Virus record (IMG/VR): IMGVR_UViG_3300024432_000029
Span: 1-42,557 of that record
Source: a virus
Reading direction: 5' to 3' (one strand)
DNA length: 42,557 bases
Part shown: in pieces, positions 4,885 to 26,241 of the stretch
How positions within the stretch are numbered: the first letter of the stretch is position 1
How the letters are laid out: each line of letters starts with the position of its first letter
Notes under the pieces: generated by a model
What the model was told of the DNA's origin: nothing
Database searches by the model: none
What the model saw: the letters and a program-made list of their open reading frames with translations, nothing else
Position numbers and translations under genes: made by a program

Positions 4885-5976
4885 TTACGCAACTACTGCG
4901 TGGTCTCCGATGTCGGCAATTCTGCCAAGACATAGACTAGAGCCCAGTAGCAAGGCACCGTAGTTGATTAGCCTCAAGCCGCCAGCATCGAAGTCTTCCA
5001 GTTCTGGGAAGCGGACTAGCTTGTACAGGTCTCCAGCACCTTCAGTTCCGCCGTAGGCATAGGTTAGACCAGGCTCCTGGTTCAGGACGTTTCCGCGCTT
5101 GATACCGAAGATGGAGTAGGCACGAGTACCTGTAGTATACAGTCCTCTGGCATCAGCTGAAGCTCCAGTACCAGTTCCGTCTGCCTCGGCAACGAGGTAG
5201 TCAGTTCGGATTATAGGAATACCATCCCAGAAGAGTATCCTCTTGCCCAGGTCATTGTAGCCCATAGTGATGAAGCTCATCCCACCAGCAACACTGGTCA
5301 TAAGACTAGCAAAACCCCGCTCCTGATAGGCTTCATCCATTCTGCGGATGATTTCAAAAGGAGACCAGAGCTCATCTATACCATGAAGCATAGCATCAGC
5401 CAGTACTCTCAGGAAGTGCAGACTAAGACCTACACCTGCGCCTCCATTATCAATGTTCTTCTGGTCATAAGTACTGCCATGAGTGTATGGAGTACCATGC
5501 TCAGCAGCTAGAGCGTGTAGTCCGTCAAACTGCTTAGTGCTAGTATAGGTGTTGTCGGCATAGATCATCCTCAACCCAATCTTCCGCTTGAGTCCTTTCT
5601 CAGACTCCAGAAGCACTCTTGCTTCGTAGTTAGTGTAGCTTCCGTAGATACCAGGTAGATAGTGGTCTAGCTTTCTCTGGATATAGCTTCTGCGAAGGGT
5701 CATTTCCTTCTCCTCATAGTCTACATCCTCAGTCCAGGATAGTTGCTGACCAATATCTATTTCAGTTACTGCAGCTTCAATGGCGCTTACTGCGGATGGC
5801 TTTTCTCTTAGCCACTCTATCTTAAGCCCGCTGTGAGCAGCCTGACCTACGGTTACTCTGTCTAGAGGGTTATTGCGTTTTATATCTTCTTCAAAGACAC
5901 CAGGTATCTTCATTGACTGCGTCAGCTTCTGCGCCGCCGCTAGGTTAGCCCAATGACCTCCACTTTCGTCTGCCAT
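4885..5976 (-). CDS. Major capsid protein, probable HK97 fold
   Basis: The 363-residue product follows a scaffold-like gene and has the length and layout of HK97-fold coat proteins. An N-terminal arm is followed by a long E-loop-like charged segment (~85-115, with YEEKEMTLRRSYIQRKLDHY). A helix-rich P-domain follows, and then A-domain strands with FWDGIPIIRTDYL, a segment type typical of this fold (a strand reading 'the capsid protein G-P-I...'). The start has AAAGGAGAA. There is no fused protease. Function is inferred from context and fold-like features rather than one diagnostic motif. Confidence 0.8.
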   Translation of the reverse strand: MADESGGHWANLAAAQKLTQSMKIPGVFEEDIKRNNPLDRVTVGQAAHSGLKIEWLREKPSAVSAIEAAVTEIDIGQQLSWTEDVDYEEKEMTLRRSYIQRKLDHYLPGIYGSYTNYEARVLLESEKGLKRKIGLRMIYADNTYTSTKQFDGLHALAAEHGTPYTHGSTYDQKNIDNGGAGVGLSLHFLRVLADAMLHGIDELWSPFEIIRRMDEAYQERGFASLMTSVAGGMSFITMGYNDLGKRILFWDGIPIIRTDYLVAEADGTGTGASADARGLYTTGTRAYSIFGIKRGNVLNQEPGLTYAYGGTEGAGDLYKLVRFPELEDFDAGGLRLINYGALLLGSSLCLGRIADIGDHAVVA

Positions 5977-5999: not shown

Positions 6000-6662
6000 C
6001 TAAGTTTGGGGTGGAGCGTTGCGGACTCCGCGTATAGGTGTAGCTTCCAGAGCCTTAGCTGCTCTCTCTATATTAGTCTGGGGAGCAGCTTCTCCAGAAC
6101 CACCACCTATAGCATAAGGTCCTACGCTACCACCTCTGGCTGTAGATACAGCCTTTAATGCTTCCTCAAAAGCGTCAAGCTCACTCATATTCTTCTCTTT
6201 GATAGTATCGGGAACTACTCCGTATTGTAGTACTAGATTAGCTCTCCTCAACTCTAGAGTGCTAGTTGCTAGCACATCCACTCTGCCTATGGCAGTCTCT
6301 AATTCCTGCTTGACCTTCGCAGCTTCCTCATCGGTTACTGCACCCGTCTCACGGGCTTGCTCGTTCTCTGTGATTTTAGCGTTTAGAGTAGCTATCTGCT
6401 TCTGACCTTCAGATACCTCAAGTTTGGCAGTATCTATGGCTGCCTCATGAGATGTCTGCTGAGTCTTCAGCTGCCCCTCTAAGCTGTTCTTAGCGGCTAT
6501 CAAATCTGACTCTGGCACATACTTCTTACCATCAAGAAGTGTTGCGCCGTCCTTCAACTCTACCTTAGGAAGAGTAGGAGTAGTAGGCGGAGTTGTTGGA
6601 GGAGTCTCTCCTTTATCGTCGCCAGAACCACCAGTGCCATCTGGTACTTTGTCTTCTACCAT
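6000..6662 (-). CDS. Capsid scaffolding protein
   Basis: This 220-residue protein has a Pro/Thr-rich acidic head (~10-33), a long heptad-rich coiled coil (~50-145, rich in Ala, Glu, Gln and Lys) and a basic, Gly/Pro-containing tail ending IRGVRNAPPQT. Scaffold proteins of tailed phages typically combine a central coiled coil with a short basic C-terminal segment that binds the coat protein. It lies 23 bases before the capsid gene and is the first gene behind a late promoter, which fits the high scaffold and coat expression needed for procapsid assembly. Confidence 0.8.
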   Translation of the reverse strand: MVEDKVPDGTGGSGDDKGETPPTTPPTTPTLPKVELKDGATLLDGKKYVPESDLIAAKNSLEGQLKTQQTSHEAAIDTAKLEVSEGQKQIATLNAKITENEQARETGAVTDEEAAKVKQELETAIGRVDVLATSTLELRRANLVLQYGVVPDTIKEKNMSELDAFEEALKAVSTARGGSVGPYAIGGGSGEAAPQTNIERAAKALEATPIRGVRNAPPQT

Positions 6663-6683: not shown

Positions 6684-6720
6684 AGTCTACCACATATGTA
6701 GGGCGATTGCAAGGATAATA
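6684..6720 (-). promoter_or_regulatory. Late-type promoter upstream of scaffold/capsid genes
   Basis: Read on the - strand this contains ATTATCCTTGCA, then 18 bases, then TAGACT preceded by TGG (an extended -10). The same 12-base element with the same 18-base spacing and TGGTA(C/G)ACT occurs upstream of the small-terminase candidate (18877-18913). The -35 half is far from TTGACA, so recognition may need a phage activator. The scaffold start codon lies about 21 bases downstream. Confidence 0.65.
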
Positions 6721-6735
6721 AATAAACAAAACAAT

Positions 6736-9700
6736 TTATTTTATCATCTCCTTGGTCAGGTATCGCTTTCTCAAATCCTCGTATATCTCCTTAGCCTCAG
6801 ACGAGAGCAAAGCTGTAGTTGTTCCGAAGAAGTTAAGCCATGCATCGGTCTCTGGGTCAAGTATGCGGAGGCGCTGTCTAGCTTCTCTGAGCCTTTTCTG
6901 ATAGCCTGATATGAGTTTAACCCCGTCAGGACCTATTATCTCTCGCAGTTCTTCTCGCTCAGCAGCAGGAGCTACCTCATATCTGCGTATCTGCTGTACT
7001 TGTTCAGGCTCATACTCACGGAGTACTATGGCTCGGAGATTTCTATAAGGTCTCATAAACTCTCGGCTAACCTGCCAGTAGAGTTTCTCCATAGGAGTCC
7101 AGTCGGCTTGAATCCTCTGAAGTAGGCGTTCTCTGTGAGGAGCATCCAGAGACTCTAGTAGTATATCTATGTAGGCGTAGTAGGTATCAAAGTCTCTCTC
7201 CATCCGCTGAGACTCCCAGCTCCACTTATAATCTGGGCGGAGTTCATAGTAGTAATAGAGTAGCTCTTGGTCAGGTGTCTGGGTAGGAGTAGGAATATTG
7301 CGCTCCTCTAGCATCTTAGCTCTCTCTTCAAAAGTTTTAGGAACATCCTTGTAGGCAGGAGACTCTCCAAGTACTCTAACTGCCTCTGCCAGGCTTCCTA
7401 CCAAGTCACTGCGGAAACTCATCCACTGGTCAGGACCTATCTCGCCATCTACAAACTGACGATTCATCTCTACCATGCTTGGACGGACTAGTTTGCCATC
7501 CTCATAGACTCCAGTAGTCCTAGCCTCATTATATACTTTGTCCAGCTCTTCATAGTAGTCTCTAGTCTTGACATCCAGTAGCTGCCAGCTGGAAGGATAG
7601 AGAGGAGTAGTAACTCCCTGCCATCTGCGGTAAGTCTCCCACTCATATAGTAGCTTCTGCTGATAGACATCTAAGTGGTAGTAGTCAGAGAATCTCTTAC
7701 CTGTTACTGGGTATTGACGGTCAATCTGCTCTTGGACAGACACTGATACTCCAGTGGCTTCTTCAATAGCTAGTCTCATCTCCTTGCGGATTTCTGTAAA
7801 CTCCTGTGGTCTTATGCGGAACAAACCAGTTTGCTGCATCAGTATACCTTTGATACCATCAACTCGGTTAACTGCATCTAGCCAGAGCTTCTCTTCTTCT
7901 GGAGTTAGTTTCTCCCCAGTCTGCTTCTTCCGCCAGATGAGGTCAGCATCATAGCCTTCTTCTCCCAGTGTAAGCATAGTCATATAGTCTCTAAAGCGGT
8001 CTGGGTAGATATGGTCTAGCACTGCTCCTATATGCTGAGGAGATAGAGCTCTCAAACCACTAAGGCTTGTCCTCACCCAGGCAGGAGCTAGTTGCCCCCA
8101 TTCAGGCTTGTCCTTCGCCCAAGCTCCAAAGGCTACAATAGGTAGCATAACATGGACACCTGGGAAGAAGCCTGCTCTACCTATGTAGTCTATAAACTCC
8201 ATTCCAGGCATCGCATCATAGTACTCAGGGAAGTCTCGGAGGTAGAAGGATCTAAGACCGCCCATCCAGACTGAGCCTCTAAGGATATTTATCTGAAGGT
8301 CAGTGGCAGGTACTGGCAGATAGCCTTGGTCAGTATAGTCCATAAATCTGGCTAGTCCTGTCATAGTGCCAGGAGTTCGCATATAAGTTCTAGGAATCCA
8401 GCGCCAGCGGAAGAGCTCATAGTTCCAAAATGGGAAGATAGCTCGCATAGATTCATCTATGATGTTAGCATCGTCATAGGTAGGATAGGCTAGAGCGTGC
8501 ATATCTCTGGCTTTAGTCATGGCAGATTCCTTGGTAGTCCACCAGTCAGCAGTCCCAGTAATCTCCTTATAAACTGGCAGTTTCTCTACATCATCTGCTA
8601 CTCCATTTATATACTGACGCCACCTGACTATATCAGATTCAGGAATCTTGTTAGCAGCGTGTAGTCTAGTTATCTCTTGCCTTATCTCTTCCAGCTGCAT
8701 TAATGTAGGACTGTCAGGAGTTAGTATTGTAGGCTCTATTCCCAGATTCCTCCAGAGCTGGTCATAGACTTCTCCTATAGCATCATCAGTAAAGCCGAGG
8801 TCAGCAGCACTCTTGCCTAGCTTAGCAGCATAAGCATCAGCCTGCTCTACAGTATGTAGAATGAAGTCCTCTCTTGGGCGGATAGTGGCGTGGTGCTGTA
8901 TTCTAGTAAGTCCTCTGTATAAGTCATCCCCAGCAGAGCCGTACAGATAAGCTAGATGGTTAGGAGTTAGTTCACCCACTACCTCAGGAACAAAGTCAGG
9001 TACGAATACTGGTTTATCTACTGAGTTTAGGAAGTTGCGACTAGCCCTTAGCCTAAGGTCTTTAAACTTTCTAGCATTGAGGTCAAACTCATCCCAGATG
9101 GTAGCTTTCTGAGCTCGCTGCTGACCCCAGAAGCGCTCATTCCTTTGGCGCTTAGCAGTTCTAGGAATTACTGCCTCTATCTCAGATATCCTATTGCGAG
9201 TTGCTAGGATATTCTCTAGCTCAAGGCGGCTGATAGAGTCTAGGTCAGTGAGGCGAGCAAGCTGAACATCCGTGAGTCCAGAAGCTTTAGCGTTATCTAC
9301 TAACTGGCTCATTATCCTTGTCAGTTGTACCTCAGATGTATCCATATACTCTGCCAGCAACTTAGCTGAACCAACTTCAAAGTCATCCATCTCACCAGGA
9401 AGTAGCTTAGCTTTCCTCAGTTCAGTCAGGCGTCTGTAGTCATGTATTCTCTCACCAGTACCTTCTACTAGGCTACTGATATTCTGCATATCCCCAAGGA
9501 ACTCATCTAGATTGCGAGGAGGATTAGCTAGGAAGTTATCTGCCTCATTAGTTAGTACATCCATCTGATTTTTGAGGCTAACTAAGGACAGCTCCCTTTC
9601 TCGCTCTACCCAAGCAGCCATCCTACCGTCTATGTCAGTGAAGATACTGCCATCCAGTACCTCATCTCTGATACCATTCTTAGTCATCATCCTGACATCA

Positions 9701-12468
9701 GTGCAGTTATCAAATGTCTTGCCAAGGTCTTTGCTAACCTGTCTCCGCTCAAACTCTAGAACATCTATTTGAGAGTGTAGCCTAAGTGCATCAGATCCTA
9801 CTGTAGCATCTTGCAGTAGTACTCGTTCTATGTCTCTAGCATCTTTAGCAGATATAGCAACTATGTTATCCAATTCTGACCTTCGCTTAGCCAGTACTTT
9901 CACCAGACCATCCATATCGTCAGGAGCTATGTTTGCCAGTGCTTTCATGTAGTGGACTTGGTAGTCATAGGCTACCTGCATACTATTGAAGTGCGCCCAC
10001 ATATCGTAGGCATCTTGGAAGGAACCTAAGTAGTGGTCTCTGCCAGCTATGTTCATCTTAGCGCCTACAGTCTTACCGCCCAAGAAAGGAACCTTCTCAG
10101 GTATAACTACTTCCCTAGTAATAAACGGTACTTTGCCGCCCTTAAATACAGCTGTTCTGCCAGTCTTTGGGTCTATCATAGCCTGAGCTAGTCGTACCTC
10201 ACCACGCTCAAACATCTGTAACTCATAAGGTGCATTAGATAGTCCTTTGAATAGGCGGTTAGTCTCATCCACCCCACTATAAGCCTTAGGATACAAAGGC
10301 TCTGCTCCGCCCAAGAAGCTTCTCTGAATATTCTCAATGAAGTTGTAAGGACCAAAGTTAGTGAACAGCAGATTCCATCTGGCTACAGGCATTACCAGTC
10401 GGCGTTCTACAGCTACTAGCTGTGCAGAATATAATACCCTGTCTGCCACTCTACTGTGCCAGGAGGCTGACCTACCAGCCTGATTCATAAACTTAGTTAA
10501 AGGACTGTGTAGGTTATCATAGCGGATTCCTTCCAGTCTATTAAACATGCCAAAGAGAATATCGTCATACGTATCTCCTTTGAGAGCAGCCTTGGCAGTG
10601 TCAACTACCTTCTGTCTGAATGCCACTAGCTTAGCCGCCATCTTATTTACCATATCCTCAGTAGCTTCCTGTCCAAGGTCAGCTATTATCTTGCCAGCTG
10701 TTACCCTCTCACCTTGCCCACTGAACATATTGAGTACTTCATTATTAAGATGAGCTAGGCGGTTAGTATCAAAGGTTATCTCCTCAGCTATCTCCTTGGT
10801 TAGTTTCCTAGCAGCCAAGTCATCTATGTAGTTAAACTCTAGCATAGGAGCTCCTGCTCTAACTGCAATATCCCAACCTTCCATAGGTCTTGCTATAGCG
10901 TTGTCAATAGCATTAGTGGCAGTATCAAAAGCATCCTTAGCAGTTAAGCCTTTAGAATTACGAACCCTAGGAAAGAGTCTCTTTACATTCGCACTCATCT
11001 TCATATACCAGTCCTGAGCAAACCTTCTGGACATCATAGTATAAGTTCTAGGAATAGCATACTCCACTGCGCCTAACAGAGGCTTAAACCCTACCTTAGC
11101 TGGTATGTATGATGTAAACCAGTAAAATCCCCTAAAAGGAGCCAGAAATCCTTTCACTGCAGCCTTGAAGAGAGCATCCTCACCCTTTAACCATCCTTGC
11201 TCAAATGCCTGTACCCAAGGACCTATTCTAGTTCCTGCACCCCTAAGTCCTAATCTAGTAAATCCCCAGCCTATCTTCTTAGCAATCGCAGTACCCATAC
11301 CTAGTCCGATGTAGGTAACTGGGTCGAAGAAAGTCTCACCACTCATCTTTAGCCACCAAGGAGCATCCCACTCATTGAAAGCCATAGCATAGGCAGACCA
11401 GCTACCCTCTCCCATAGAACGGTAGTATTTATAGTTCTCCTCTAGCCTAGCGGCGGCGGTATCTTCAGAAGTCTTGAATAATCTGTGAGCTCCTATAATA
11501 GCAGCACTGTATAGAGGTCTCGGTAGCATATCAAAATACTTATTCAGCAGTTGCACTGTAGCCATCATAGGCTGTGTGAATAGGAGCTTGGTAAACTCCC
11601 AAGGAGTTAGCTCAGGAGCCTCCACCAGTACTGTGCCTGCTCGGATAAGATTTAGTCGGTCAGACTCTATTGCCCACTCGTTAGCTCTAGCTGCTAGCCA
11701 CTCCTTAGCACTATCCATTTCCTCATCTTGCAAGTCCATCTGACTGAGCATACCTCTTACATCTTCCTCAGACATGCCTTGTGGTAGTTCAGCCACTCCA
11801 AAGGCAAAGGACTTAGCTATCTCATCTACGGTTAGATTGTGAACTGCCTTCAGCTCCAGCTTCGGGGCAGTTAGAATCTCATTTAGTATTTTGGTCTGGG
11901 CTTCTATAGCATCGCCATCAAAGCCTTCTGGTAGTACATTAGACAGATGCTTCAGGCGGTCAAATGCAGATGTTAGCCAGACTGTGTCAGCATCACTCAT
12001 AGTATCCAGTGGAATATACTGTAGTATATCTTCTGGACTCTGGAGTTTATAGTCTGGAATTGAAAGGTAATTTGGTAGAGTAGTTAGTACTTCCTGTCTC
12101 CAGATGGTAGCCTTGAAATCCTGCAAGGCAAGGTCAAACTCCTGCTTGCGTAATTCCAACTCACGCTCATATTCCTCTGGAGTAACATACTCCCCGTAGC
12201 CTGGCATCCACGAGACAAGACGACTTAATGTTCTATCCACAGTCATGCCCCGCTGCACACTAGCTAAGCCACCTTGCGCCTCAGCAAGTCTTTTCTGAAC
12301 CTGATACTGCTTCACTCCCAACTCCTCTAGTTCTTTAGCGAAGCCTGGGAAGTACTCGGGAACTTCCACTGGAGGAGGAAGCATAGGAGCTCCAGGCTTG
12401 CCTTGCTCCCAGCCTTTTTCCTCTAATATCCTCTTAGTCTTTTCTGTCAGCTCTGTTGGTTCTGCCAT
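6736..12468 (-). CDS. Giant virion-associated protein (1910 aa), probable internal/ejected protein
   Basis: This gene takes up 13 percent of the window and lies between portal and scaffold. Its ATG overlaps the portal stop as TAATG. The product is largely helical. It has a charged N-terminal region and several Trp/Phe/Pro-rich stretches such as FDPVTYIGLGMG (~385) and a segment near residue 1340 (PFWNYELFRWRWIPRTYMR). Long coiled-coil-like Arg/Glu regions make up the last 400 residues. I see no nuclease, protease or transglycosylase signature. Size, position and helical character resemble the internal or ejection proteins of podoviruses and the polyvalent proteins injected with phage DNA. That assignment is inference, and no named domain is certain. 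Confidence 0.75.
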   Translation of the reverse strand: MAEPTELTEKTKRILEEKGWEQGKPGAPMLPPPVEVPEYFPGFAKELEELGVKQYQVQKRLAEAQGGLASVQRGMTVDRTLSRLVSWMPGYGEYVTPEEYERELELRKQEFDLALQDFKATIWRQEVLTTLPNYLSIPDYKLQSPEDILQYIPLDTMSDADTVWLTSAFDRLKHLSNVLPEGFDGDAIEAQTKILNEILTAPKLELKAVHNLTVDEIAKSFAFGVAELPQGMSEEDVRGMLSQMDLQDEEMDSAKEWLAARANEWAIESDRLNLIRAGTVLVEAPELTPWEFTKLLFTQPMMATVQLLNKYFDMLPRPLYSAAIIGAHRLFKTSEDTAAARLEENYKYYRSMGEGSWSAYAMAFNEWDAPWWLKMSGETFFDPVTYIGLGMGTAIAKKIGWGFTRLGLRGAGTRIGPWVQAFEQGWLKGEDALFKAAVKGFLAPFRGFYWFTSYIPAKVGFKPLLGAVEYAIPRTYTMMSRRFAQDWYMKMSANVKRLFPRVRNSKGLTAKDAFDTATNAIDNAIARPMEGWDIAVRAGAPMLEFNYIDDLAARKLTKEIAEEITFDTNRLAHLNNEVLNMFSGQGERVTAGKIIADLGQEATEDMVNKMAAKLVAFRQKVVDTAKAALKGDTYDDILFGMFNRLEGIRYDNLHSPLTKFMNQAGRSASWHSRVADRVLYSAQLVAVERRLVMPVARWNLLFTNFGPYNFIENIQRSFLGGAEPLYPKAYSGVDETNRLFKGLSNAPYELQMFERGEVRLAQAMIDPKTGRTAVFKGGKVPFITREVVIPEKVPFLGGKTVGAKMNIAGRDHYLGSFQDAYDMWAHFNSMQVAYDYQVHYMKALANIAPDDMDGLVKVLAKRRSELDNIVAISAKDARDIERVLLQDATVGSDALRLHSQIDVLEFERRQVSKDLGKTFDNCTDVRMMTKNGIRDEVLDGSIFTDIDGRMAAWVERERELSLVSLKNQMDVLTNEADNFLANPPRNLDEFLGDMQNISSLVEGTGERIHDYRRLTELRKAKLLPGEMDDFEVGSAKLLAEYMDTSEVQLTRIMSQLVDNAKASGLTDVQLARLTDLDSISRLELENILATRNRISEIEAVIPRTAKRQRNERFWGQQRAQKATIWDEFDLNARKFKDLRLRASRNFLNSVDKPVFVPDFVPEVVGELTPNHLAYLYGSAGDDLYRGLTRIQHHATIRPREDFILHTVEQADAYAAKLGKSAADLGFTDDAIGEVYDQLWRNLGIEPTILTPDSPTLMQLEEIRQEITRLHAANKIPESDIVRWRQYINGVADDVEKLPVYKEITGTADWWTTKESAMTKARDMHALAYPTYDDANIIDESMRAIFPFWNYELFRWRWIPRTYMRTPGTMTGLARFMDYTDQGYLPVPATDLQINILRGSVWMGGLRSFYLRDFPEYYDAMPGMEFIDYIGRAGFFPGVHVMLPIVAFGAWAKDKPEWGQLAPAWVRTSLSGLRALSPQHIGAVLDHIYPDRFRDYMTMLTLGEEGYDADLIWRKKQTGEKLTPEEEKLWLDAVNRVDGIKGILMQQTGLFRIRPQEFTEIRKEMRLAIEEATGVSVSVQEQIDRQYPVTGKRFSDYYHLDVYQQKLLYEWETYRRWQGVTTPLYPSSWQLLDVKTRDYYEELDKVYNEARTTGVYEDGKLVRPSMVEMNRQFVDGEIGPDQWMSFRSDLVGSLAEAVRVLGESPAYKDVPKTFEERAKMLEERNIPTPTQTPDQELLYYYYELRPDYKWSWESQRMERDFDTYYAYIDILLESLDAPHRERLLQRIQADWTPMEKLYWQVSREFMRPYRNLRAIVLREYEPEQVQQIRRYEVAPAAEREELREIIGPDGVKLISGYQKRLREARQRLRILDPETDAWLNFFGTTTALLSSEAKEIYEDLRKRYLTKEMIK

Positions 12469-14237
12469 TACACTTCTCCCTCTGGAGTAGTTCTAGCTGG
12501 CAAGGCAGTTCGCTCAGGCACAGTCTCTACCCTACCTCTACCTCTAGGAGGCTGTACTGGCTGCTCCTCCCTACCTTCCTCAGCAGTCAGCATAGCCAGA
12601 GTTGCATCTGCTACTGTACTATACAGTTGTGCAGTTTCTCTATCTCCAACCTTATCTAGCCAAGCAGCCTGGCGTCTATAGTATTGTATCAGAGCTATCA
12701 GGCTATTGCTAGGATGCCTCTCAGCTTGGTCAGCTCTAGTCTGAGCTCTCTCCTGCATCGGGTCTTCAATGTCAGGGAATAGTTTATTCATAACATAAGT
12801 ATAGCTTAGACGGAAGTCTGGGTCTAACATTCTAGCAGTAGTAGCTCTCTGAATCAGGTCACCAGGAATCTCTACATCGTAGTCAGCACTAACAAAAGCA
12901 CCATCTGGTAGAGCATCTGGATAGTCCCAGCCATAAGGCTTCACTCCCCGCTCCTTAATATCTGCTAACCAATCATTATCTATATCCTCATAGCGGTTGA
13001 TAAAGGCTTGGTGAAAAGGCTTCATTACCTGATTGGCAGAGGCGGCTATCTGACTCATAACATAGGCTGTTAGTTGACCTTGAACACTGCCATACATAGC
13101 CCAACTAACTCCTCCTCTCTGCATCATAGCTTCCAGGTCAATCTGAGTACTTCTTAGCTCTAGAGGTAGAGGCGGAGTACCAATGAAGTCGACAGAGTCA
13201 TCAGGACCTCCCCTAAATATAGCACCCCTGCGGAAGACATCCTCAGGTTTGACTATAGCCTTACCACTCCTACTCCGTTCAAAGATTCTAGGCTGGGCAG
13301 TATCTCTTAGTAGTTGTAGACTAAAGCTCCACCACTTATTCCAAGTTCGATAGACATGCTCATTGGTTGCTATGATAGATTGCCCTAACTCCGCCTTCCA
13401 GCGTTCAGAACTAGATTCCTGAGTCTGTAGCTTTAGTGTAGATGAGTTAGTTGGTACCATACCTTCTGTTAAACTGCCCATATCAGGCAGTCCGCCAACT
13501 GGAGCTACATAGATAGGCATACGCTTAAAGCGAGTGCGCTCAAACTTTACCAGTGTAGTACCTATAACTACTGCGTTCCATATAGCCTTATTGAAGGGGA
13601 AGACATCAGATATCTCTACCCACCAGTAGTCAGAGATAGTAACATTCCTTCCTACTGACGCTCTCCACTGGGCATAGTTACCACCCAGATTCCAGTTATG
13701 TCTCTTAGCCATATTAGTAGCTTGGCTGGAGGCTACCTGATAGATATGAGCTACTTCACTAAGCCCAAGTGTCGCATCCCACATAGGATAGACATCTATA
13801 GGATTCCAAGGTTCGTCATAGCATCTACTACCATCATCTGTTACTACTGCGAAGTCAGCATACCATCCAGTTGCCAGCATGAAGCCTAGTGAAGTTCGCT
13901 GTAAAGATTGTCTGGGATTAGTTCTGCGGAAGTTAGTCTGAACATCCTTCCAAGCAGTTCGGAAGAAGCGACTAACAGATGCTATGGCAGTTGTAACCTC
14001 TGGTTCTATTGATTCATAGTCCTTTATCCTATGAGGTATGTCAGTATCTAGAAGATGCAATACTAAGTTAAATAGAGACCTGGGGTCGTTCCCGACGAAA
14101 CTCTCCATTTTTTCTGTTTTCAACTCATCAATCATTTCTATTAATCTGTACCAAGTACGCATTTTGGCATCCCTTGTACTCCAAAAGCGTTTTAACTCAG
14201 TACATCTAGTTATAACTGTATTAGCGTTCCTGTCCAC
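12468..14237 (-). CDS. Portal protein
   Basis: The 589-residue protein lies downstream of large terminase, as phage portals usually do. It starts with GTG behind GGAGGTGTGTA and overlaps the end of the HNH gene. Portal-like features include an N-terminal helical region, a mid-domain with WNPIDVYPMWD, a long helix-rich stem region around MQRGGVSWAMYGSVQGQLTA (~385-405) and a C-terminal, disordered Arg/Pro/Glu tail. It would form the dodecameric DNA channel at the head vertex. The family-level call rests on position, length and these features. Confidence 0.8.
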   Translation of the reverse strand: MDRNANTVITRCTELKRFWSTRDAKMRTWYRLIEMIDELKTEKMESFVGNDPRSLFNLVLHLLDTDIPHRIKDYESIEPEVTTAIASVSRFFRTAWKDVQTNFRRTNPRQSLQRTSLGFMLATGWYADFAVVTDDGSRCYDEPWNPIDVYPMWDATLGLSEVAHIYQVASSQATNMAKRHNWNLGGNYAQWRASVGRNVTISDYWWVEISDVFPFNKAIWNAVVIGTTLVKFERTRFKRMPIYVAPVGGLPDMGSLTEGMVPTNSSTLKLQTQESSSERWKAELGQSIIATNEHVYRTWNKWWSFSLQLLRDTAQPRIFERSRSGKAIVKPEDVFRRGAIFRGGPDDSVDFIGTPPLPLELRSTQIDLEAMMQRGGVSWAMYGSVQGQLTAYVMSQIAASANQVMKPFHQAFINRYEDIDNDWLADIKERGVKPYGWDYPDALPDGAFVSADYDVEIPGDLIQRATTARMLDPDFRLSYTYVMNKLFPDIEDPMQERAQTRADQAERHPSNSLIALIQYYRRQAAWLDKVGDRETAQLYSTVADATLAMLTAEEGREEQPVQPPRGRGRVETVPERTALPARTTPEGEV

Positions 14238-14739
14238 TACACACCTCCGTCAAGCCAAACCTCTCAAGCATCTTCATAGCACACTCTTCCTCAATCTTAG
14301 ACTTTAGCTCTTCATACTTTTGAAGTAACCCAGTATCTACGGCTTCTATCATCCAATGGCACTTAACACATACCCAAATACCTATAGTTGGTTCCTCATC
14401 TATCCAATGATGGTAATGAAACTTGTTTCTGTCATCCTTGTATGTTGCACCACATAACTCACAAAAGCCTAGAAGCGGTCTCTTATCCTCTCCAGATGGA
14501 AGTACCTTACCACCAAGCTTGCGCTGCCTATCCCTATCCCTACCACCATTCTCCCTATACTTCCGCATCGTCTTGGCTCTGCTCTCCTTATGGCTACACT
14601 GCCATGCTTTATTGTACTCCCTAGCGTGCTTCCTATAGCAGTCGGGACACATAGAGCTTCTATGGCTAGTATTATCAAAAGGAAAGTTACATACCTTACA
14701 TACAGTATTAAACATTACTACAGTTGCATTTCTATTCAT
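14221..14739 (-). CDS. HNH homing-type endonuclease between terminase block and portal
   Basis: The N-terminus has a zinc module (CKVC ... CPDC, ~15-34) followed by a basic linker rich in Arg and Lys. The C-terminal half contains the HNH core: CELC (~93), YHHW with adjacent histidines, then CVKC (~119) and HW. Such free-standing HNH enzymes usually act as homing nucleases. Its stop lies 17 bases inside the portal gene, so the gene has been fitted tightly into the late operon. It has the same Cys4 plus HNH architecture as genes at 28.9, 30.3 and 32.9 kb. Confidence 0.8.
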   Translation of the reverse strand: MNRNATVVMFNTVCKVCNFPFDNTSHRSSMCPDCYRKHAREYNKAWQCSHKESRAKTMRKYRENGGRDRDRQRKLGGKVLPSGEDKRPLLGFCELCGATYKDDRNKFHYHHWIDEEPTIGIWVCVKCHWMIEAVDTGLLQKYEELKSKIEEECAMKMLERFGLTEVCSGQER

Positions 14740-14982
14740 TTACTGCTCCTTCAAAGCCCGCTGAACGGTTCTCTCACTAATACTAAGCTTCTTAGCTACT
14801 TCGGCTGTATCTAAGCTTTCTGACAAGCGCCTGATTTCAGCACGTCTCCGCTCAGCCTTCGGACTAGCGGATTTTTCATCGTAGATGCACTTAGGACGAG
14901 TACAAGTCAGGCAGTCATCGTGCAGTCTGCATCCAGTATTCTTAGCCAATCTATTAAGTTCAGCTGATGTTAAGTTCCCCAT
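14740..14982 (-). CDS. Cysteine-cluster/helix-turn-helix DNA-binding protein
   Basis: The chosen ATG (14982) gives an 80-residue protein overlapping the terminase end by 13 bases; an upstream start would overlap by 80. A cysteine cluster (GCRLHDDCLTCTRPKC) is followed by a basic region and a C-terminal helix-turn-helix (TAEVAKKLSISERTVQRALK) of the sigma-region-4/resolvase type. It could be a transcription regulator or a DNA-packaging accessory protein. Its place directly after large terminase in the late operon argues for a late role, but no target is visible apart from the two unusual late promoters. Confidence 0.7.
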   Translation of the reverse strand: MGNLTSAELNRLAKNTGCRLHDDCLTCTRPKCIYDEKSASPKAERRRAEIRRLSESLDTAEVAKKLSISERTVQRALKEQ

Positions 14983-17645
14983 CTGTCGTCCCAACCACCC
15001 TCGGTGGAGTTGCCTACATAACCACGTGCCACTGGCATAGCAGAGCGGCAAACGATTGCTATTGCCCCACAGTCATGGTGGTCATCAGCACCTACTACCA
15101 GTATGCCACCTCTGACTGTGGCGTTTCTGCGGATATTCTTGCACTGAGACCAGAAACGTATATCTTGACAATCTATGTCCTCCAGATGCCTACTGACCTC
15201 TGTAATCATATAGGGCTTAGTTGATACATTAGTCTGCCAGCCAATAGTTCTCATTCCCTTGCCAGTTCTTACATCCTCACGGTAGTAGAGGTCAGAGTAA
15301 TCCCTTAGGTGAGATACAATATCCAAGTTATCTTCAGGACAAATAACACCAGTATTGTAGTAGTGCGCTACTTCCTTCATAAGTTCTGCCATCTCCCACT
15401 CATCGTAGAAGCCTGCTAGAGTAGCACAGTGCTGCATTACTGGAGGAATCTCATTACCATCCTTATCCCTGAAGCCTTCTATGAAGTTCCATACATGACC
15501 AACTGATTCAGATATCTTACCCTTGCCTGGGTCAATACTAATAACATAGCCCTTGCCATCCTCTACATCGTGCCATATATCCAGAGTGGCAGTTATGGTA
15601 GTCTTAGTTATCTTATCAACTGCGACAATGCTCTTCTGTATAGGTGCTGGGATGCAGATGTGAATCTTACTAGTTATAACATCTGTATTGTATGCTTGGT
15701 CTCCAGCCACCATAAAGCAGGTCTCATCATCTTCAGGAAACTCCTGAGAGAATATAAATTGAGTTTCACCAGATCTACGCATAGATGCCATCTCAGCTAT
15801 CTTATATCTACGCCAGCGAATCTGGGCTATTGCTACTCGCTCCTTGAAGTTGTAAGAGCCTATAAGTTTATCAAGTAATACAGTCTCTTCTGAACTCATA
15901 TTAGGTAGTATCTCTTGGTCGTCCCCAGAGAGGCAAAATGGGCTATCAGGATACATAACATACTCTGGGTGCAAGAACCAAGGATAGAAGTGATTCCTAT
16001 ATACTGAGCCACCTATCACTGTTCCTTCCTTAGATGCCCTATACATCTCACAGAAAGGATTATCCTCACCATTGGCAGTAGAGTTTCCGCACCACACTGC
16101 CTTACCATTTCTCCTAACAAGCAGTAAGTGGTCAGGTACTGTAGCACAATATACATATCCTGAGTAGCTAACCTTCTCAGGTAACTTATGCCTAAAGGAT
16201 ACATTGGAACTTGTAGACCAACTAAGCATATACTCCTCTAGGTGCCTAGTATTACCGTGAGGATAGAGATTAGTTGAGTATCCTAACTTTAGCAGAATCT
16301 CCTGAAAGTCGTTCATCAGAGGTAAGCTAGTATTGTAGAGTAAGTTCCTGTTATAGGCTCCGTCCCCCATACTAAAAGCTGCGATAAGCGTACGCAAATA
16401 CTTGCTCTTAACAAACCTTATATTATCTGGAAGTATTTTAGGCTCTGTGTAACCACTGAGATAATTGTGTAGCCTACTGTCCCTTATGCACCATTCTAGC
16501 AGTGGTCTATCTTTTCTGCTACTCTCATAAAGTTCCGCTCCAAGAAGTCCAGCCAATCTTTCAGACGCAGACTTCATAACAAACCAGTAGTCGCCAATGC
16601 CATTCTGGCTTAGCCAGGTTCCAGAGGATGTGTCAGTCCAGCCCTCGGACAAGAAGTATCCTAAGAACTCAACCCACAAGGACATAGGTATATCTATATC
16701 AGGCTTACCGCCTTTACCAGGAAGAGTAAAGTAGTCATGTTCATCTCCATACCAGTCAACAGATGTATCAAACAGAGCACCAGTTTTAGGAATATCCTGA
16801 GCTTTCCTGAATCTGTTATTGCTACTATATCCGCTCGTCCTCAACTTAATCCACAGGTCATGCTCAGGTGTAACCATTAGGTCTAGTCTCTTACCGCTGA
16901 AGTGGAGCATCTCCCCATTGTAAGGATACTTTAGTACCACAGAAGGTTTAGTATAATAAGCCTCATTAGTTTGGGAGTCCTTTGTAAATATCTCCATATC
17001 GTCTGTTAAGTCAGGGAATCTAACCCAACCTTGCCTAGTTAGTATCTCTGTATCCTTGTCATAGCAACCTATGCGAATTTTAGTTCCAGTACTCAAAGGA
17101 ACTCTCTGTATTGCTGATGCCATAATAGCCTCATGAGTACCGAGTTGCCAGAAAGCGTACTCATCCAGTAGCAGATTATGAATAACCTCACCTCTACCAA
17201 TCGTATAGCTTCTGCTACTGAATATATACATAGTAGAGTAGAAGTTGGTATCCTTATCTTCCCAGCTAAGTTCAGTAGCAGATTTGTGGTCTAGCTTAGG
17301 AATAGTAGGAATCTTCCTCCGCAAGCTCTGATGGTAGCGCTTAGCTTTTAGTATCTGGCGCTGGGCACTAAACTCATCATAACTAATGATAACTGACACA
17401 GTTCCATCAATAGTTATGTTGTCAAGGAAGAAGTCTCCAACTATGATACTGGTAAATCCTACCTGAGCAGGCTTAACATATATGTCTCGAAGACCAGAAT
17501 CGACAATAATATCTTCCTGAATAGGATTAGGTATGAGAGGAACTCTCTGCCTATTCTTATCGTCAATATCCAACAGAGTGCTCAGTGTAAGGCGTCTGTC
17601 AGAGAACAGCGTTTTTAGCGCTTCGTCCTGTGTCTGAACTACCAT
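14970..17645 (-). CDS. terL: Terminase large subunit interrupted by an intein
   Basis: The product packages DNA into the procapsid. The 891-residue precursor has a 563-residue extein and a 328-residue intein (residues 194-521). Extein motifs are a Walker-A-like KPAQVGFTS (~58-66), Walker B LLLDE (158-162), and the coupling motif GSTANGEDNPF formed only after splicing. The nuclease domain has ISIDPGKG (~702-709) and a late acidic DDHHDCG. AGGAG precedes the ATG. The intein sits between G193 and S522, inside the ATPase coupling motif, so the unspliced protein should be inactive for packaging. Confidence 0.92.
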   Translation of the reverse strand: MVVQTQDEALKTLFSDRRLTLSTLLDIDDKNRQRVPLIPNPIQEDIIVDSGLRDIYVKPAQVGFTSIIVGDFFLDNITIDGTVSVIISYDEFSAQRQILKAKRYHQSLRRKIPTIPKLDHKSATELSWEDKDTNFYSTMYIFSSRSYTIGRGEVIHNLLLDEYAFWQLGTHEAIMASAIQRVPLSTGTKIRIGCYDKDTEILTRQGWVRFPDLTDDMEIFTKDSQTNEAYYTKPSVVLKYPYNGEMLHFSGKRLDLMVTPEHDLWIKLRTSGYSSNNRFRKAQDIPKTGALFDTSVDWYGDEHDYFTLPGKGGKPDIDIPMSLWVEFLGYFLSEGWTDTSSGTWLSQNGIGDYWFVMKSASERLAGLLGAELYESSRKDRPLLEWCIRDSRLHNYLSGYTEPKILPDNIRFVKSKYLRTLIAAFSMGDGAYNRNLLYNTSLPLMNDFQEILLKLGYSTNLYPHGNTRHLEEYMLSWSTSSNVSFRHKLPEKVSYSGYVYCATVPDHLLLVRRNGKAVWCGNSTANGEDNPFCEMYRASKEGTVIGGSVYRNHFYPWFLHPEYVMYPDSPFCLSGDDQEILPNMSSEETVLLDKLIGSYNFKERVAIAQIRWRRYKIAEMASMRRSGETQFIFSQEFPEDDETCFMVAGDQAYNTDVITSKIHICIPAPIQKSIVAVDKITKTTITATLDIWHDVEDGKGYVISIDPGKGKISESVGHVWNFIEGFRDKDGNEIPPVMQHCATLAGFYDEWEMAELMKEVAHYYNTGVICPEDNLDIVSHLRDYSDLYYREDVRTGKGMRTIGWQTNVSTKPYMITEVSRHLEDIDCQDIRFWSQCKNIRRNATVRGGILVVGADDHHDCGAIAIVCRSAMPVARGYVGNSTEGGWDDRWGT
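16083..17066 (-). mobile_element. Intein with LAGLIDADG endonuclease inside terL
   Basis: The first residue is Cys (CYDKDTEILT, block A), block B contains TPEHD (~66-70), and the C-terminus reads AVWCGN followed by extein Ser. The usual penultimate His is Gly (residue 327), a known variant. Two LAGLIDADG motifs, LGYFLSEGWT (~135-144) and LIAAFSMGDG (~227-236), with the expected acidic residues, suggest an intact homing endonuclease. At 328 residues it is a full-length DOD intein. Exact removal rejoins IRIG to STANGEDNPF, a normal terminase motif. Confidence 0.92.
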
Positions 17646-17650
17646 GTATG

Positions 17651-17857
17651 CTATCTCCTAGAAGTCCTCCTCAGGGATACTGCCCTTGTTGAAGTATAAG
17701 GGATACCCATAAATCTCCTGCGTGCTTTAACGGTTCTGCCAGTCACTACAGTTCCGCCGTGAGGTGTTAGTCTATATGTGAATCCTTTTCTGCGAAGTAC
17801 TCTATGAGCGTAAGCTGACACAGTAGCTATTCTTCTAGCTCTCTTAGCTTTAGGCAC
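17651..17857 (-). CDS. Arginine-rich small basic protein A
   Basis: This 68-residue protein starts at GTG behind GGAGG and overlaps the holin-like stop by one base (TAGTG). About one third of its residues are Arg or Lys, with clusters such as KRARR, LRRK, KARRRF and LRRTSRR. It has no cysteines, no membrane segment and no signal peptide. It is the gene just upstream of large terminase. Likely properties are DNA or RNA binding, for example helping package or condense DNA; the family is unknown. Confidence 0.7.
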   Translation of the reverse strand: MPKAKRARRIATVSAYAHRVLRRKGFTYRLTPHGGTVVTGRTVKARRRFMGIPYTSTRAVSLRRTSRR

Positions 17858-18102
17858 TAGTGTTTACCTCCATTCTTTAGTTTGAGATATGTAGTAAGCT
17901 CTGTTAATGCTCTAGTGTTCTCTTCACGAGATTCTTGGTCTTTAGCCAGCAACATCTCTAGCCTCTCAGAGTGAGCATTGTGGACATCATGGATTCTGCG
18001 CTCAGTATCCTTTCTGTCCTTTCGGTACATGATAAATATGATAACGGCTAGTATTGCAATAGGTCCTCCAGTTGCCAGAGCATCTAGTAAAATGGATTCC
18101 AT
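17857..18102 (-). CDS. Holin-like small membrane protein (BhlA/UviB type)
   Basis: The 81-residue protein has one predicted membrane segment near the N-terminus (about 12-26, PIAILAVIIFIMY), immediately followed by a positive cluster (RKDRKDTERR) and a charged coiled coil. This is the layout of BhlA/UviB bacteriocin-associated holins (DUF2762-like). Its start directly abuts the stop of the upstream Arg-rich gene. No endolysin is visible beside it, so a membrane-anchored adaptor or virion role remains possible. Confidence 0.55.
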   Translation of the reverse strand: MESILLDALATGGPIAILAVIIFIMYRKDRKDTERRIHDVHNAHSERLEMLLAKDQESREENTRALTELTTYLKLKNGGKH

Positions 18103-18291
18103 CTATCTTCGTCTCCTTCCTACTCTAGTCCTAACAGCTACAGAGGCAGCTGGTCGGCTATACCTGAGTCTGCTACGAGTTATTCTGCCTATAGACCTAG
18201 GCTCTCTTCTTCCTACACGACTCAATTGAGCTCTACGGATATTGCGTCTTGCTGCCCGTATGACCTTAGCTGTTGTCGGTCTTCTCGCCAC
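18103..18291 (-). CDS. Arginine-rich protamine-like protein B
   Basis: The product has 62 residues, about a third of them arginine, with few acidic residues and a C-terminal VGRRRR. It starts at GTG behind AGAGG and overlaps the end of the small-terminase candidate by 26 bases. The sequence is low-complexity and very basic, like protamines or basic virion core proteins. A role in neutralising or binding packaged DNA is plausible. Its composition also makes other frames open, but operon spacing supports it as a gene. Confidence 0.6.
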   Translation of the reverse strand: MARRPTTAKVIRAARRNIRRAQLSRVGRREPRSIGRITRSRLRYSRPAASVAVRTRVGRRRR

Positions 18292-18859
18292 TCTTACCTC
18301 TTGTCATTGATATAGTGTCTGTACGACTAAACTGGACTATCTCCCGATTCTTACTAACCCAATCAGCAAAGTTAAAGCCTCCATCACCTCCAGATGCTAT
18401 TGCTTTTAGCAACTGTAGCTGCTGAGGCGTATAGGCACTTCGGAGTTTAAGTAGATACTGCTGGTCAAAGGGAGTTAGCTGAGCATGCACCATCTCGCCA
18501 GTATCTTCATCTTCTACTAGTTCCATACCTAGTGAAGTTCGTAGTACTCTATGGTCTTTCTCCAGAACCATACGGAAGTTGCGGTAGAAGTCTAGCTCAG
18601 TATATTCTTGGCTAAGCTCCTTGCGAAGTTCAGGTATGCGTTCTTCTAACTCAGCAAACTTACTATCTAGCCTAGCATCAGTTAGCCAGCTTCTAGTAAG
18701 GCCTAGAACATATAGAGATTCTTCGTCAGAGAAGCCACAGCAGAGATAGCCAAGATACTTAGCTCTGTCATCACCTCTACGATATGGGATAAGTGCTGTA
18801 GCAGCCGACACTTCCTTCGGCTCTCCAGAGGGTAACTGTAGATTGCTATTTTGCGTCAT
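18266..18859 (-). CDS. terS: Candidate terminase small subunit
   Basis: This is the first gene of the late arm. The ATG at 18859 has GGAGG seven bases upstream; a longer in-frame start is less good. The 197-residue product contains an N-terminal helix-turn-helix-like region around GFSDEESLYVLGLTRSWLTD (~40-60), a central helical oligomerisation-like part, and a C-terminal Ser/Arg-rich tail. This arrangement, with position upstream of terL, suits TerS, which recognises packaging sites. Intervening small genes are unusual, and no family signature is decisive. Confidence 0.6.
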   Translation of the reverse strand: MTQNSNLQLPSGEPKEVSAATALIPYRRGDDRAKYLGYLCCGFSDEESLYVLGLTRSWLTDARLDSKFAELEERIPELRKELSQEYTELDFYRNFRMVLEKDHRVLRTSLGMELVEDEDTGEMVHAQLTPFDQQYLLKLRSAYTPQQLQLLKAIASGGDGGFNFADWVSKNREIVQFSRTDTISMTRGKSGEKTDNS

Positions 18860-18876
18860 AGTATCCTCCACTCTCC

Positions 18877-18913
18877 AGTGTACCATAATCTAACCCCATA
18901 TGCAAGGATAATT
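18877..18913 (-). promoter_or_regulatory. Late-type promoter upstream of the terminase block
   Basis: On the - strand ATTATCCTTGCA is followed after 18 bases by TACACT preceded by TGG. This matches the promoter before the scaffold gene in both elements and in spacing, differing mainly in the unconserved middle. The start codon of the first late gene is 17 bases below the -10 hexamer, implying a very short leader. The element lies in the divergent intergenic region, close to but not overlapping the + strand early promoter. Confidence 0.65.
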
Positions 18914-18953
18914 ATGGACAATGTTTATTGTTTTGACATAGTGGATAGAGAGG

Positions 18954-18982
18954 TTGACATAGAAGATAAAGTGTGTTATTAT
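18954..18982 (+). promoter_or_regulatory. Early promoter of the + strand arm (sigma-70 like)
   Basis: TTGACA (18954-18959) is separated by exactly 17 bases from TATTAT (18977-18982), with a TG dinucleotide one base before the -10. A second copy of TTGACATAG lies 21 bases upstream at 18933 and may be an operator half or alternate contact. The first + strand gene starts about 38 bases below. Confidence 0.85.
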
Positions 18983-19019: not shown

Positions 19020-19475
19020 TTGGATATTTATCTAACGACTTGTCGTAAGACAGTTTCTGCTTGTAGTTACTGCTCTGAGCCCATAGAGCTATCAGAACCT
19101 ATGGTCTGTGGTAAGTTGTGGCAAAAATATACTAAGGAAGGAGGTGAGCCGAGAAGATGGGTAAAGAACTTCCGATGGCACGGGAAGAGGAAGAGGGACG
19201 GTCAGTGCTGCTGGCTAGTACAAGCTCTGGAGAATCTATCACTACATCCAGTAGTGGAGACCAGAGGACGCAAGAGTCTGATTCTGCCGAAGTCAGTAAA
19301 AGAGGAAAGGTTAAAGATACTAAGACAGAGAGCAAGGTCAGTCGCAAAGCTAAGAGAACTAATGCTAGACCCAGACGCCAAAGACATAGACGAGATAATA
19401 AGGATAGGGAGCAAGATAGAGGAGATGAAGGAAAGGATAGCAAACCTAGGCGGTGTGCCTCAGAGTTGGGAATAA
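19020..19475 (+). CDS. Zinc-finger-containing early protein (151 aa)
   Basis: This is the first gene of the early arm, starting at TTG about 38 bases below the promoter, with only a weak AGAGAG site; the start is uncertain. An N-terminal CSYC plus a later VCGKLW and CC near residue 63 suggest a zinc-binding domain, possibly of the PARP-type finger kind. The C-terminal half (~95-145) is a charged coiled-coil-like helix. Being first, it may act early on host functions. Its last 10 bases overlap the next gene, in a -1 frame open over the whole second half of this gene. Confidence 0.6.
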   Translation: MDIYLTTCRKTVSACSYCSEPIELSEPMVCGKLWQKYTKEGGEPRRWVKNFRWHGKRKRDGQCCWLVQALENLSLHPVVETRGRKSLILPKSVKEERLKILRQRARSVAKLRELMLDPDAKDIDEIIRIGSKIEEMKERIANLGGVPQSWE

Positions 19476-19819
19476 CTTATCCTGGCAGTTATTGTGATGA
19501 TGCTAAGATAACTCCGCACTATTGGGTAGAGATTGAGAAGGTTAGTAAAGGCTCACTCTACCAGTGCATACTATGCCACAGGCACTTATGGCTACCTCTA
19601 CTTCATACGGACTCAAACCGCTTGGGTAGTTCAATGCAAAGGCTTGGCAAGAATGAAGGCTACTGTCACTACCTGAACAGAAACAGACCAGCTAAGCTAC
19701 TAATGGCTAAGTTGCAGGATCTAAGGAGATTGGAGGGAGAGATAGATGATAAGATAGAGTTTGCTAAGATGACAGATAAGATACTAAGCGATATGGAGTA
19801 TGATAGAAAGGAGATATAA
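19466..19819 (+). CDS. CxxC-containing small protein, start uncertain
   Basis: The well-supported part begins around a TTG at 19466 and continues to a stop overlapping the next ATG. It has ILCHRHLWL with one Cys pair (CILC), aromatic residues, then an acidic helical C-terminus. The frame is open upstream to 19157, but that part looks like the -1 reading of the preceding gene. It could instead be made by a -1 frameshift from that gene (see findings). No family was recognised; the neighbours are other early small proteins. Confidence 0.5.
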   Translation: MGITYPGSYCDDAKITPHYWVEIEKVSKGSLYQCILCHRHLWLPLLHTDSNRLGSSMQRLGKNEGYCHYLNRNRPAKLLMAKLQDLRRLEGEIDDKIEFAKMTDKILSDMEYDRKEI

Positions 19820-20109
19820 TGACTAAGCAAGAAGAGATACGTAAATTGGTAGATAGTTGTGTGAGGGCTGTAACAAACAACCGTAGCCTACAAACAGAAT
19901 GTTTATTTGAGGCAGCAGTGGATAATATCCTGCAAGGTCTTGATGAACGAGGTGTAGTGATAAAGGTGGAGAGGAAGTTGCCTACATTCCCTCCCGATAG
20001 CGAATTACATCCTTACGGACAAGCATATGTGAAGGGAGGGCGTGCCTACGTTCAGACATTAGTTGATGCTGGCTATGTAGCAGTAGAGCCGCTAATAAAG
20101 GAGGAATAA
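19819..20109 (+). CDS. Small hypothetical early protein (96 aa)
   Basis: The ATG sits after AAAGGAGATATA and overlaps the previous gene's stop. The product is mixed-charge, with an N-terminal helix (EEIRKLVDSCVRAVTN) and a C-terminal segment with PDSELHPYG and YVAVEPLIKEE. No motif was recognised. It is followed by the next gene with a stop/start overlap at 20109, so translation is probably coupled. Confidence 0.7.
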   Translation: MTKQEEIRKLVDSCVRAVTNNRSLQTECLFEAAVDNILQGLDERGVVIKVERKLPTFPPDSELHPYGQAYVKGGRAYVQTLVDAGYVAVEPLIKEE

Positions 20110-20504
20110 TGCAGTTAGATATTCATTGGGGTAGTGGTGGTGTAGAGAGTAAGGATTGGGCTTTAATGTTGGCAAGTATGTATCTGCGATGGGCTATGCG
20201 TAATCAGATGAATGCCTTCATTGAACAGATTGAAGTTGGCTTCATAGTAACTATTGATACCGAGAAGGATTTGAGTTCTGAATGTGGGGTTCATCGCCTT
20301 GTACGCATTTCCCCCTTTGATACTGAGTATTGTCGTCATACATCTTTTGCACTTGTTAGCAAGGGTAATGGAAGTGATTGGGACAATCAGATTAGAAGTT
20401 ATGTCCTTCATCCGTATAAGATGGTAAAAGACCACAGGACTGATTATAAAACAGATGATATTGATGGCATTTTGAATGGTAACTTGGATAATTTTATAAC
20501 CTAA
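20109..20504 (+). CDS. Hypothetical early protein (131 aa)
   Basis: The ATG follows AAAGGAGGAATA and overlaps the preceding stop. The protein has an N-terminal helical region with many Met and Trp residues and a middle with IVTIDTEKDLSSECGVHRL. It has few cysteines, no signal peptide and no recognisable catalytic motif. It is part of a run of closely spaced early small genes. Confidence 0.7.
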   Translation: MQLDIHWGSGGVESKDWALMLASMYLRWAMRNQMNAFIEQIEVGFIVTIDTEKDLSSECGVHRLVRISPFDTEYCRHTSFALVSKGNGSDWDNQIRSYVLHPYKMVKDHRTDYKTDDIDGILNGNLDNFIT

Positions 20505-21621: not shown

Positions 21622-21650
21622 TTGACAAAGGTCGGACTATCTGGTATAAT
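21622..21650 (+). promoter_or_regulatory. Perfect-consensus promoter 3 (TTGACA-17-TATAAT)
   Basis: TTGACA at 21622-21627 and TATAAT at 21645-21650 match consensus at all twelve positions, with a 17-base spacer and an extended TGG. It should be the strongest promoter in the window. The leader of about 100 bases contains a 6-bp GCTGGT/ACCAGC pairing. Confidence 0.92.
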
Positions 21651-25944: not shown

Positions 25945-26241
25945 TTGGAAGATATATCAACAGCAGAACTCAGGCGCAGAATAATGAAGGAGCACGGACT
26001 CACACCTCCTAAACCTCCTCCGTACTTCCTATCCGAGCAGCCTGAGTATAATGAGTCAGCCGTCGACTTCCCTAAAACTAGCCTAATGAAATACATTGAG
26101 ATGAAGTATGAGGTAAAGTTAAAGGAAGACATCTACAAGGGTAGTATCAATGATGTCTGTAGTCGCTATGGTTGGGAAGTAGATAGAGCTACTATCAGTC
26201 GCTGGAGAAAGATTATAAGGAGGTATCTAATTGATAGATAA
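25945..26241 (+). CDS. Helix-turn-helix protein (98 aa), candidate early regulator
   Basis: The TTG start has AGGAG before it. The N-terminal part is charged and proline-rich (TPPKPPPYFLSEQP). The last ~30 residues form a convincing HTH (SINDVCSRYGWEVDRATISR) followed by WRKIIRRYLIDR. It may regulate a phage promoter, and is a candidate for the unusual late element. Confidence 0.7.
   Translation: MEDISTAELRRRIMKEHGLTPPKPPPYFLSEQPEYNESAVDFPKTSLMKYIEMKYEVKLKEDIYKGSINDVCSRYGWEVDRATISRWRKIIRRYLIDR

Follow-up and report, generated by a model that had tools for sequence, protein, structure and literature searches.

Two predicted late promoters of an uncultured phage carry a conserved box beside a sigma70-type core

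Introduction

The middle promoters of T4 consist of a MotA box, which replaces the -35, and a sigma70 -10 element, and are used with AsiA; ArpU, RinA, LtrC and p4 of phi29 are small phage DNA-binding late regulators that work through the housekeeping polymerase of the host. The late promoters of Mu (lys, I, P, and mom) are activated by protein C, which acts from a site immediately before the -35, and are transcribed by the host polymerase (PMC4461284). In SPP1, the late promoter PL1 precedes gene 1, which encodes the terminase small subunit, has an atypical -35 and needs an unidentified early phage factor (PMC6316719).

Here we analyse a stretch of 42,557 nucleotides of viral DNA (positions 1 to 42,557 of IMG/VR record IMGVR_UViG_3300024432_000029; the window), in which two predicted late promoters carry a short box (consensus WTATCC) next to the -35. 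As in Mu, several late promoters of one phage share a site just upstream of the -35, at which an activator is proposed here; however, the -35 and -10 of Mu are both non-consensus, whereas in most relatives of the window the -35 is consensus and the -10 is extended, and no match to C or Mor was found among the proteins scanned. As with PL1, one of the promoters lies ahead of the terminase block and, in the window, has an atypical -35, but no consensus late promoter related to PL1 was found in SPP1, whereas the box described here is common to two promoters and conserved in the clade. The likeness to the T4 middle promoters lies in the combination of a class-specific upstream box with a sigma70 extended -10 core; the difference is that the -35 hexamer is kept here and adjoins the box, and the proteins scanned contained no match to MotA or AsiA. 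With ArpU, RinA, LtrC, and p4 of phi29 the phage would have in common a small DNA-binding protein acting with the host polymerase, although the 98-aa helix-turn-helix (HTH) protein proposed here has no significant match to them in the family databases searched.

Two Predicted Late Promoters in the Window

The pattern ATTATCCTTGCA-N15-TGGTA(G/C)ACT matches the window exactly twice, both times on the minus strand, and 100 dinucleotide shuffles of the window yielded 0 matches. The two minus-strand sites and their identical spacing, as given in a preliminary description of this DNA, thus stand, but the gap between the conserved 12-mer and the 9-mer TGGTASACT is 15 bases at both sites and not 18. 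The features concerned are:

18877..18912, minus strand: late promoter P_ter, before the terminase block, recognised by the motif match and homologous promoters in relatives; box ATTATCC 18912-18906, -35 TTGCAT 18905-18900, 17-bp spacer, extended -10 TGG-TACACT 18885-18877
18266..18859, minus strand: gene that opens the terminase block, read from its ATG at 18859; the program-made ORF begins at 18886
6684..6719, minus strand: late promoter P_cap, before scaffold/capsid, recognised in the same way; box ATTATCC 6719-6713, -35 TTGCAA 6712-6707, 17-bp spacer, extended -10 TGG-TAGACT 6692-6684
6000..6662, minus strand: scaffold/protease-like gene, weakly matched by the PHROG for head maturation protease and followed by the major capsid gene
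4885-5976: major capsid gene
18913..18940, minus strand: A-rich tract that precedes P_ter, AAAACAATAAA here and AAATAAATAA in its conserved form among relatives
18954..18982, plus strand: early promoter TTGACA-17-TATTAT, divergent from P_ter, with about 48 bp between the two -35 elements
21622..21650, plus strand: early promoter of the typical form, TTGACA-17-TATAAT, whose -10 follows a TGG; it is preceded by AGG, has no TATCC box and is listed as a contrast case

P_ter lies directly upstream of ATG 18859 and P_cap directly upstream of ATG 6662, with predicted starts at about 18870 and 6677, respectively, and GGAGG ribosome-binding sites lie between each promoter site and its gene start. Both sites have the layout of a sigma70-type extended -10 promoter: the extended -10 sequences (TGGTAGACT and TGGTACACT) lie 17 bp, within the usual 16-18 bp, from TTGCAA or TTGCAT in the -35 register, and a TGn precedes a -10 of the form TANNNT (TGG-TAGACT at P_cap, TGG-TACACT at P_ter, and TGn-TATACT in most relatives). 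Compared with TTGACA, TTGCAA matches at 4/6 and TTGCAT at 3/6 positions, so that the sigma70 -35 is evident for the class and weakly so for the window. The middle of the element had been described as unconserved, and this is borne out, the spacers of the two promoters of one genome, in relatives too, being 36% identical, which is no better than permuted sequences.

The A-rich tract is conserved near -60 (about -63 to -55) in related late promoters, is specific to them, and may possibly be an UP-like element or a second half-site; it is non-coding at P_ter and at P_cap shares bases with the stop codon of the gene upstream. An inverted-repeat site (AATAA...TTATcc), suggestive by eye only in several upstream regions, was rejected; the AAATAA of P_cap falls in this same stop codon overlap.

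Several other genes in the region deserve mention. A 1910-aa ORF (6736-12468, minus strand) between the portal-like and scaffold genes is conserved in relatives and has no PHROG or Pfam match. The 891-aa terminase-like ORF at 14970-17645 (minus strand) has LAGLIDADG and other intein-type matches and is probably an intein-bearing large terminase. On the plus strand, the frames 19020-19475 and 19157-19819 overlap and are both recognisable in most relatives, the second being broken in G005 and G032; they may represent an overlapping gene or a frameshift product. The 131-aa protein encoded at 20109-20504 (plus strand) has a stand-alone peptide-chain-release-factor PCRF domain (Pfam 7e-17) and was not found in 13 relatives.

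Recurrence in Related Genomes

We gathered 61 related contigs through the major capsid protein and then read the near-complete genomes, in which the promoter pair recurs, as the preliminary description had proposed to check. The homologous site upstream of the scaffold gene of relatives mostly reads TTATCC-TTGACA-N17-TATACT, and the pattern scan detected two sites of this TTGACA form in each of G005, G013, G014, and G015. The exact motif occurs in just two further contigs of IMG/VR, because the TTGCA of the window is rare and the TTGACA form is common. A profile built from the other genomes ranked the two window sites first and second (41.3 and 26.4 bits; the next match scored 3.0 and shuffles at most -0.7), and with each genome left out in turn P_ter and P_cap came out far ahead of the other late-strand matches in nearly every one of 14 genomes; the profile is ungapped and misses one promoter with an 18-bp spacer in G005 and in G009, and the capsid site of G006 coincides with the contig end.

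Absence of the motif from relatives with the same gene order, which had been named as evidence against a function, is not observed within the box clade but does apply to a sister clade. The seven genomes of the latter, with capsids 54-59% identical, have mostly kept sigma70 promoters on the late strand ahead of both the terminase block and the scaffold gene, but the box is absent and the C at -8 mostly so; the box is, therefore, clade-specific. Many TTGACATAA/TTATGTCAA repeats occur in and around the promoters of this sister clade (G027-G034; loci L105-L125) and are perhaps a different operator. No close relative was found among 50,697 phage records, nor any cultured close relative, and a host search in a genome collection of 84,980 species, run with the major capsid protein and the portal-like protein, yielded no relative.

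The TTGCA of both window promoters, combined with TAGACT/TACACT as -10, is rare among relatives. The near sister L002 of the window has TTGACA/TATACT, and L020 and L021 have TTGCAT/TAGACT at the capsid site, yet do not group with the window as sisters in the tree of capsid proteins. The occurrence of the variant elsewhere in this tree, with TTGACA in the sister L002, indicates that TTGCA arose in parallel or by recombination. Judged from these comparisons, TTGCAA/TTGCAT is a derived, weaker version of TTGACA.

Late and Early Promoter Classes

We compared 43 unique late promoters with 74 early-strand promoters of the related genomes, the labels "early" and "late" resting on gene content and strand. 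A TATCC box adjoining the -35 was present in 31 of the 43 late and none of the 74 early promoters (Fisher 8e-19), box position having played no part in the selection of the early set. A site specific to the late class, as in activator-dependent phage late promoters, is thus seen in these counts and in the profile scan. In the late class the box has the consensus WTATCC immediately upstream of the -35, and the last two bases before the -35 are CC or AC in 42/43 late vs. 1/74 early promoters. The C at -8 (TATACT) is likewise a late feature (35/43 vs. 2/74; 1e-19), in a comparison in which the share of TATAAT is somewhat enriched, the early set having been chosen by near-consensus score. A spacer of 17 bp occurs in 41/43 late and 41/74 early promoters.

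The -35 is TTGACA in 39 of the 43 late promoters, and the early promoters of the window (TTGACA-17/18-TGn-TATAAT) have the core that is common to the late class. As far as can be read from their sequences, the late and early classes are one kind of promoter, of which the late copies in the window are weaker matches. Coding sequence often contains the short box by itself; the box is informative only by its position next to a promoter core. An AGG just before TTGACA, the opposite of the late CC, was noted in 28 of the 74 early promoters (e.g., 18954, 21622, and 22441 on the plus strand) and may mark an early-class element.

Candidate Box-Binding Proteins

Two HTH proteins, at 25945 and 14740, had been put forward as regulators. 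The former is:

25945..26241, plus strand: early gene for a 98-aa HTH protein, the leading candidate reader of the box

A regulatory role of this protein is plausible: its C-terminal half looks DNA-binding from sequence and from the AlphaFold model, in which it is helical and confidently modelled, and it is conserved where the region is included. The family occurs in all near-complete genomes that cover its region, those of the sister clade without the box included, and has an invariant EVxRxTISxWRK-type helix. Pfam gave sub-threshold HTH matches only, in some members; Pfam, PHROGs, and NCBIfam gave no significant match to ArpU, RinA, LtrC, or p4 of phi29, a Foldseek comparison of the model with the PDB returned nothing significant, and neither these family databases nor the PDB search supplied a solved or named homologue. 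Although it leads the candidates, its assignment as reader of the box is tentative.

Where the helix has R at TIS(R/K)WRK, TATCC was found at every promoter read; where it has K (G021, G023, G036, G044, and G043), TATAC occurs at one or both promoters in 4 of the 5 genomes; and in the sister clade without the box the helices are of the TTISRWIK type, with WIK for WRK. This correlation tracks phylogeny and may reflect one event. It is conceivable, and we put it forward more tentatively still, that these proteins form a so far unrecognised family of late activators in phages, which would read WTATCC beside the -35 and enable the host sigma70 polymerase to use promoters whose -10 is weak, helix and box having co-evolved (R with TATCC, K with TATAC, and a different helix with no box).

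The ORF at 14740, assigned to PHROG 836 (late activator) and weakly HTH, is an unlikely regulator. A general reader should be present wherever the box is, and tblastn detected a relative in 2 of the 13 box-clade genomes (G012 and G014), for which reason it was rejected in this role; no similarity between it and the HTH protein at 25945 was detectable.

Discussion

That the window holds two late promoters with a shared, conserved upstream element is supported by our comparisons. We consider it fairly probable that both are late promoters of the host sigma70 type that carry a box and are assisted by an early phage DNA-binding protein at this box. The protein would occupy WTATCC beside sigma region 4 and recruit or stabilise the host polymerase, and both late operons would switch on together once it accumulates. 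The comparisons show that the box is conserved in the late class and that both classes have the sigma70 architecture; the activator step and the identity of the activator we infer. Across 15 genomes, the two promoters agree better in box, -35, and -10 when they come from one genome than when they come from different genomes (0.881 vs. 0.857, p=0.025), whereas the spacers show no such excess (p=0.38); this pattern is expected if one shared DNA-binding factor reads both promoters, to which it lends modest support. The TATAC box of G023 is displaced by 1-2 bp relative to the -35, which suggests that the box is read separately from the -35.

The core could also be read the other way. With TTGACA and an extended -10 close to consensus, the promoters of most relatives might fire without an activator, as such promoters normally do, and a repressor at the box would fit: intrinsically strong sigma70 late promoters would at first be kept silent by a protein of the phage or the host at TATCC over the edge of the -35 and released later. 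The position of P_ter back to back with an early promoter, an arrangement found in most relatives, favours this operator, but the C at -8 and the weak -35 and -10 of the window point to promoters that are kept weak, and a site adjoining the -35 is the classical position of an activator touching sigma, which renders repression rather improbable. An activator other than the HTH protein at 25945 would leave the preferred reading, host polymerase assisted at the box, otherwise unchanged, and the gene next to P_ter offers one:

19020..19475, plus strand: 151-aa protein with a PARP-type zinc-finger-like model and an RGRK motif, second candidate regulator; its gene is the first of the early genes and is divergent from P_ter

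It is present in both clades, its model resembles a PARP-type zinc finger (Foldseek probability ~0.92, E ~0.1), and the conserved RGRK motif could bind the A-rich tract. However, this structural match is weak and fingers of the PARP type usually recognise ends or structures of DNA and not sequences, so that we regard it as an unlikely reader of the box.

The preliminary description had taken the upstream element to be non-sigma70 and to point to a phage-coded activator or an altered polymerase. For recognition by an altered polymerase or a phage-coded sigma factor it counts that the -35 and -10 of the window are poor sigma70 matches, but the perfect TTGACA of relatives at the same site, in a core of -35, 17 bp, and extended -10, and the early class with this same core leave that view unsupported, and the scan of early proteins revealed neither a sigma factor nor an RNA polymerase; we deem it very unlikely. 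It is barely credible that the two sites are alike through recent duplication or conversion of one promoter. They do share the rare TTGCA, but their spacers are unrelated and nearly every clade member in which both sites are readable has kept the box at each of them, and this explanation is contradicted by the relatives.

If the host polymerase is indeed assisted by a box-binding phage protein, the combination of an intact box with a decayed sigma70 core suggests that the late genes of the window lean more on this predicted protein. The use of host polymerase together with a late activator box of a phage is a well-known principle. What the comparison provides is a late regulon, defined at the level of sequence, for an uncultured group of phages, together with a small, named set of candidate regulators.
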